Source: Cryomorphaceae bacterium
GTDB taxonomy: Bacteria > Bacteroidota > Bacteroidia > Flavobacteriales > Schleiferiaceae
Direction of reading: 5' to 3'
Assembly (NCBI GenBank): GCA_020832345.1
Contig: JAFIEY010000043.1
Span: forward strand, 1-45,295
Length of the DNA: 45,295 nt
Positions 11,503-43,932 of this stretch are shown one piece after another (position 1 is the stretch's first letter; each line of letters opens with the position of its first letter). Both the position numbers and the translations under genes were made by a program. Under the pieces are notes generated by a model that saw only the letters and a list, made by a program, of their open reading frames with translations, was not told the origin of the DNA and did no database searches.

Positions 11503-11555
11503 GTTTAAAATTGGCAAAAAACAGGTTTTAGACCAGAGGTTAATTGCCAAAACTA

Positions 11556-11700
11556 TGAGTCTGCTCCAAAAAGTCTCTTTCTGCCAAAATCTACCGACAA
11601 GGAATATTTTTTTAACCTTCACTAACAGCTAGTTAGCTCTGATTTAAAAATCCCCTTTGCGTTGATTTTGATTGAAATCTTCCTTTTTGGAGTGGACTCA
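11556..11700 (+). repeat. Dispersed inverted-repeat element, copy 1 (145 bp)
   Basis: The left end TGAGTCTGCTCCAAAAAG and the right end CTTTTTGGAGTGGACTCA are inverted repeats (16 of 18 positions). An internal palindrome-like CTAACAGCTAGTTAG is present. The right end lies 32 bases 3' of the amidase stop on the minus strand. Copies 2 and 3 are at 35757-35900 and 43876-43932. The element has no coding capacity. Confidence 0.85.
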
Positions 11701-11731
11701 ACTATCAAAAGCGAAAGTACGGGAAAATGCT

Positions 11732-35756: not shown

Positions 35757-35900
35757 TGAGTCTGCTCTAAAAAGTCCCTTTCTGCCAAAATCTTCCTTGT
35801 CGGTAGATTTTTGAATCCTCACTAACAGCTGGTTAGCTGCGGTTCAAAAATCCCCTCCGCGTCGATTTTGATTGAAATCATCCTTTTTAGAGTGGACTCA
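35757..35900 (+). repeat. Dispersed inverted-repeat element, copy 2 (144 bp)
   Basis: Ends are TGAGTCTGCTCTAAAAAG and CTTTTTAGAGTGGACTCA. Internal TTTTTGAA and TTCAAAAA pair around CTAACAGCTGGTTAG. It aligns with copy 1 along its length except for an inverted core at 35793-35807. The rest of the 35490-35955 gap is AT-rich and apparently empty apart from the terminator at 35911. Confidence 0.85.
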
Positions 35901-43875: not shown

Positions 43876-43932
43876 TGAGTCTGCTCTAAAAAGTCCCTTT
43901 CTGCAAAAATCTTCCTTGTCGAAGTGGGCTCA
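43876..43932 (+). repeat. Dispersed inverted-repeat element, copy 3 (57 bp, internally deleted)
   Basis: The left end TGAGTCTGCTCTAAAAAG and following bases match copy 2 up to CTTCCTTGTCG. The sequence then jumps to a right end AAGTGGGCTCA, losing about 87 internal bases. It ends 4 bases from the oxyR stop codon. Confidence 0.8.

Follow-up and report, generated by a model that had tools for sequence, protein, structure and literature searches.

A high-copy MITE family with matched changes of the terminal repeats in a Cryomorphaceae genome

Short elements bounded by terminal inverted repeats (TIRs) are scattered through the genome of a Cryomorphaceae bacterium, and are interpreted, with a probability of about 0.92, as non-autonomous DNA transposons (MITEs) served in trans by a transposase and derived from two source types. 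The genome in which they were found (home genome) measures 4,026,091 bases in 260 contigs. Three copies reside in the window, the whole stretch of 45,295 nucleotides analyzed here. TIRs are 18 bp long, conform to TGAGTC-NNN-TCYAAAAAG, and bound a non-coding palindromic body. The family is new, its MITE anatomy is of a known kind. The home genome hosts about 500 copies, a figure scaled up from the 1.53 Mb read, which places the family among the more abundant bacterial MITEs.

Copies in the window and in the home genome

Five matches to the element end (up to 3 mismatches) were found in the window, against 0.06 expected by chance. Copy 1 (11556..11700, plus strand) measures 145 bp and is of the C/C type, as denoted by the residues at TIR position 12 in the two arms. 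The left TIR, TGAGTCTGCTCCAAAAAG (11556..11573, plus strand), is an exact 18-bp end in the C form; the right TIR (11683..11700, minus strand) reads TGAGTCCACTCCAAAAAG inward. Copy 1 is flanked by a 4-bp target-site duplication, ACTA, at 11552..11555, preceded by A, and at 11701..11704, followed by T. Copy 2 (35757..35900, plus strand) is a 144 bp T/T element close to the young consensus, with an exact 18-bp left TIR in the T form (35757..35774, plus strand) and the right TIR at 35883..35900 (minus strand); its flanks, ACTT and TAAA, are not an exact duplication. Copy 3 (43876..43932, plus strand) is a short, internal-deletion form of 57 bp, in which the left end (43876-43893) is an exact 18-bp end in the T form, and the right end, TGAGCCCACTTCGACAAG when read inward, is decayed. 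The preliminary description had the three copies sharing both ends. This holds true for the left end of all three, but the right end is shared by copies 1 and 2 only. The description of the TIRs as imperfect was correct, as a fixed mismatch, TG at the left and CA at the right, is found at positions 7 and 8 (141 and 137 of 158 copies, respectively). An inner 25-bp hairpin of copy 1 (11586..11610, plus strand) is inverted relative to the other copies, since positions 31-55 of the element match the opposite strand of the others at 96%; such an inversion would be expected from template switching within a hairpin.

Further copies, sought in the genome as had been proposed, here with the terminal repeat, abound. 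Sequences matching TGAGTCYRCTCYAAAAAG with up to 2 mismatches number 1010 in the home genome, and the reversed control gave none. Paired elements were read in 1.53 Mb, corresponding to 38% of the home genome, in which 407 ends and 186 paired elements were identified. Elements measure 56-145 bp, with peaks at 57, 86, 127, 133, 138 and 144 bp, and the size classes appear to derive from internal deletions which spread as subfamilies. Copies are located at the start or the end of many contigs, and the assembly is broken inside many of them. Among 14 ends of the home genome followed by a base other than T, 13 were MITE variants and one was a lone end. Lone TIR ends flanked by unrelated sequence were observed at L097:18312 (contig G000:C146) and L155:12167 (contig G000:C47); the latter is 131 bp from the contig end, and could belong to another element.

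Insertion sites and the search for a transposase

The target-site duplications that had been suggested as a check were found, and measure 4 bp. Exact 4-bp duplications flank 98 of 180 copies, compared to a mean of 3.9 and a maximum of 12 in 1000 shuffles; the 82 copies without one count against the MITE reading. Duplications of 2, 5 and more bases occur at chance level, and those of 3 bases are at the upper limit of what shuffling gives. The preferred target is A-NNNN-T: of 89 copies bearing a duplication, 79 have A at -5 and 81 have T at +5. A nested insertion was also identified, in which a T/T 144-mer (L094:1379-1522) lies within an older C/C copy and TGAT is duplicated; removing the nested copy and joining the flanks restores a 144-bp element identical to the consensus at 126 of 144 positions. 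Copies avoid genes, 170 of 186 being located outside open reading frames of at least 130 aa, against 16% expected at random. The view of a dispersed MITE served by a transposase in trans, put forward earlier from the window alone, is strongly supported by copy number (about 500), TIRs, 4-bp duplications, nested insertion and lack of coding capacity.

The same data bear on the alternative suggestion that these sequences are REP or BIME-type elements, mobilized by a transposase of the single-strand (RAYT / Y1) type. REP super-families are palindromes of 20-40 bp, recognized by a terminal GTAG or CGTC tag on one side (PMC3733652). The present elements are similarly numerous, intergenic and palindromic, but they combine exact 4-bp duplications with 18-bp terminal repeats, bound a 57-145 bp body, and have TGAGTC...GACTCA ends with neither GTAG nor CGTC tags. 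The REP-type reading is accordingly not supported, and is extremely improbable.

In the MITE interpretation, a transposase supplied from elsewhere would bind and cut both ends, and the cut ends would be joined to a target site cleaved with a stagger of 4 bp, the repair of which would generate the duplication. A DDE-type enzyme is most likely, because TIRs are associated with a duplication of fixed length. The enzyme probably does not treat the left and the right end alike, because positions 7-9 differ between the two sides in this family, as they do in most of those described below.

The home genome and three relatives were searched with profiles PF01609, PF05598, PF13751 and PF00665, and with NF033591, which was also applied to MITE-bearing genomes of other families. 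DDE_Tnp_1, DUF772, DDE_Tnp_1_6, rve and IS4_2 proteins were either absent or associated with other ends, and none was bounded by the TIR; similarly, no long facing TIR pair encloses a transposase in the 38% of the home genome read. The transposase with matching ends that had been proposed was thus not found with these five models, and its action in trans is therefore something that we infer. The assembly consists of 260 contigs, many of which are broken at these repeats, and could therefore lack a parent element present in several copies.

Several candidate partners were rejected. IS5/IS1182-type parentage was discarded as DUF772, the domain of the IS group of ISPg4, and DDE_Tnp_1_6 have no match in the four genomes searched. 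The IS4_2 element (NF033591) has the TIR TAAGTACACGACAAAAA, which resembles one MITE end at just 12/17 positions, and its relatives in other MITE-bearing genomes have different ends, none of them closer. IS4-family elements with TAAGTACACGACAAAAA ends are found at three loci (L106 in contig G000:C56, L107, L118), as copies broken at contig ends. An IS21-type element of the relative G003 contains TIR-like repeats, TGATTCCGCTCCAAACCG, but was excluded as its outer ends are TATTCCAC. Ends differ also at ISAs1, IS1634, IS481-like and IS3-like loci. One transposase-containing contig (G000:C239; loci L105 and L271) features long open reading frames which overlap in several frames, is set apart by this from the remainder of the genome, and is possibly an assembly contaminant.

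The paired change of the terminal repeats

The change from CTCC/GGAG in copy 1 to CTCT/AGAG in copy 2, a replacement of a C-G by a T-A pair, is real, and had been taken as a sign of selection on a folded structure or on end recognition by a transposase. At TIR position 12, 84 copies are C/C, 65 are T/T and 24 are mixed C/T. The association of the two arms is strong (Fisher p = 4e-16, duplication-bearing copies), and C/C and T/T pairs are found in all the length classes. The expectation that arm changes are correlated among copies is thus verified at position 12; at other positions changes are uncompensated, and nearly always involve one arm only. C/C elements are older than T/T elements, because the median divergence of the core is 8.5% in the former versus 3.1% in the latter, and a T/T element is nested inside a C/C one; the copies thus fall into at least two strata of age. 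The paired change distinguishes an older wave of C/C copies from a younger one of T/T copies. The two source types would have populated the genome in succession, and the arms would be matched at position 12 in most copies for this reason. Mixed ends would have mostly been formed after insertion, by mutation or recombination. It counts against this account that mixed copies lack a duplication only slightly more often (p = 0.045). Changes affect 3-10% of the copies per arm at many other TIR positions, and by this estimate the mixed fraction (24/173) is roughly that expected from mutation of one arm after insertion. The best core tree features 13 C/T switches, 3 of them forced, but has few supported branches, and resolution is too poor to give the number of both-arm switches. 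In G009, which belongs to a related genus, a second paired change is found at position 13, as both arms have GAAAAG where others have AAAAAG, and the core has the TGC-type end on its opposite side. The position 13 pair fits with ends that stay matched while lineages diverge.

The element is an imperfect palindrome, predicted to fold into a single hairpin on either strand, with z scores of -5.4 to -6.9 for DNA and -5.7 to -8.3 for RNA. This strong fold, the intergenic location of the copies, and the conserved TG/CA difference, which would give G-U pairs on one strand, are features that a structured RNA, or a regulatory hairpin maintained by selection on the fold, would exhibit. However, in 55 distinct 144-bp copies pair 12:133 accounts for 22 of the 34 doubly changed pair-cells, and at all the other pairs 12 cells are compensated versus 243 broken. 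Copies had no match in Rfam, the elements are mobile, as denoted by duplications and nested insertion, and G-U pairing is not kept by the 7-9 triplets of other families. A structured RNA is hence very unlikely. Structural selection was rejected as position 12 alone covaries, and the paired change probably reflects subfamily structure, rather than selection on the fold; even where two copies differ by a striking compensatory change, subfamilies can be the cause, and fold selection is not required. The hairpin, as modelled, could nonetheless account for the deletion classes and for the inversion seen within copy 1.

Another explanation concerns the paired arm change only, and leaves the element a MITE. 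The two arms may have changed together by template switching, one arm of the hairpin formed by the long palindrome templating the other at replication. In its favor, the entire element is predicted to form a long hairpin from either strand (z -5.4 to -6.9 for DNA), copy 1 has its inner hairpin in inverse orientation, as hairpin-mediated switching would yield, both C/C and T/T pairs are represented among copies of all lengths classes, and position 13 of G009 provides another paired change. Against it, left and right still differ at positions 7 and 8 in 141 and 137 of 158 copies, one-arm mutations elsewhere were not transferred to the other arm, and C/C and T/T copies differ in age, as lineages would. 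Template switching is accordingly held to be rather unlikely, and the two source lineages are preferred.

Relatives, the phylum and known elements

The search of relatives that had been proposed did yield copies. Four of 88 genomes of the family carry the element, three belonging to one genus and one to another; besides the home genome, copies are found in G002, G003 and G009, and several are flanked by duplications. The end sequence TGAGTCNNNTCYAAAAAG was found in 18 of 395 genomes across the phylum, though some of the single matches, especially outside the phylum, may be chance hits, about 15 being expected for a collection of that size. Clusters of 5-14 TGAGTCNNNTCYAAAAAG sequences mark four genomes besides the home genome. 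Carriers include an Ignavibacteria MAG, a Melioribacter roseus MAG, Saprospiraceae MAGs and a Bacteroidetes MAG. Elements of other genomes which have both ends measure 47-208 bp, and their interiors are unrelated. Exact 4-bp duplications flank 17 of 35 distinct elements, compared to 1.6 expected, and the two ends differ chiefly at positions 7-9, but also at positions 5 and 18. No copies were found in the plasmids, phages and viral contigs searched; a single viral match, located in a phage gene, was discarded as due to chance.

Some carriers deserve a brief description. In the Melioribacter MAG (G496; loci L295, L299 and L303, among others) no more than about 50 bp separate the exact TIRs from the contig ends, and the TIRs are followed by CTAATTATTAAAACCAGTGG at the loci read; given this position, the full repeat is not assembled at the loci inspected, and the TIRs are taken to belong to a collapsed multicopy repeat. 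In Ignavibacteria HyVt-408 (L187, L194, L298) one of the MITE ends is recurrently chimeric, with ATAGGCAGG next to CGTTTCGGC in place of TGAGTCGAA. In Saprospiraceae MAGs (L218, L293, L305) identical TIRs bound CGCAGAGGCGCAGAGAACGCAGAG interiors, and three such elements are found in a row in L218.

It may tentatively be proposed, though the idea is doubtful, that all these elements form a phylum-wide superfamily which shares only the split 18-bp end TGAGTC-NNN-TCYAAAAAG, and is moved by one undescribed type of transposase. The ends would be unequal at the 7-9 triplet, and the families would have been independently recruited to one end signal, rather than descend from one parent. A common end signal on unrelated interiors, extending from the Bacteroidota family of the window to Ignavibacteria, provides a handle for finding the transposase serving them all.

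The 17-18 bp TIR had no match in the literature searched, and the 11-mer TGAGTCTGCTC alone gave unrelated matches only. Known elements are similar in anatomy. Correia elements of Neisseria are also short, non-coding and bounded by terminal inverted repeats, but differ in TIR sequence and host phylum, and duplicate TA rather than 4 bp. More than 120 copies, often close to genes, are present in N. gonorrhoeae (PMC10969869), versus about 500 elements here. ERIC sequences of enterobacteria are intergenic MITE-like repeats as well; in contrast to them, the present element features several deletion classes and clear 4-bp duplications. ERICs measure about 127 bp, and are unrelated in sequence to the present element. 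Their copy number varies from 30 up to 711 (PMC10969869). A MITE burst in a Bacteroidota genome is represented also by MITECca01 of Cardinium, 169 copies of about 240 bp located mostly in intergenic regions or in other mobile elements (PMC9769881). MITECca01 shares its ends with a parent, ISCca4 (IS982 family), whereas no parent was found here. BrickBuilt/MITE464 elements of Porphyromonas gingivalis have TIRs of the GAGACTGTTGCA type, found in the IS5-family ISPg4, and the GAAA duplication of one copy was verified by the empty site (PMC4596501). They are Bacteroidota MITEs as well, and GAGACTGTTGCA loosely resembles GAGTCTGCTC; they differ from the present family in having 12 bp TIRs, internal 23-bp tandem repeats, and about 19 copies.
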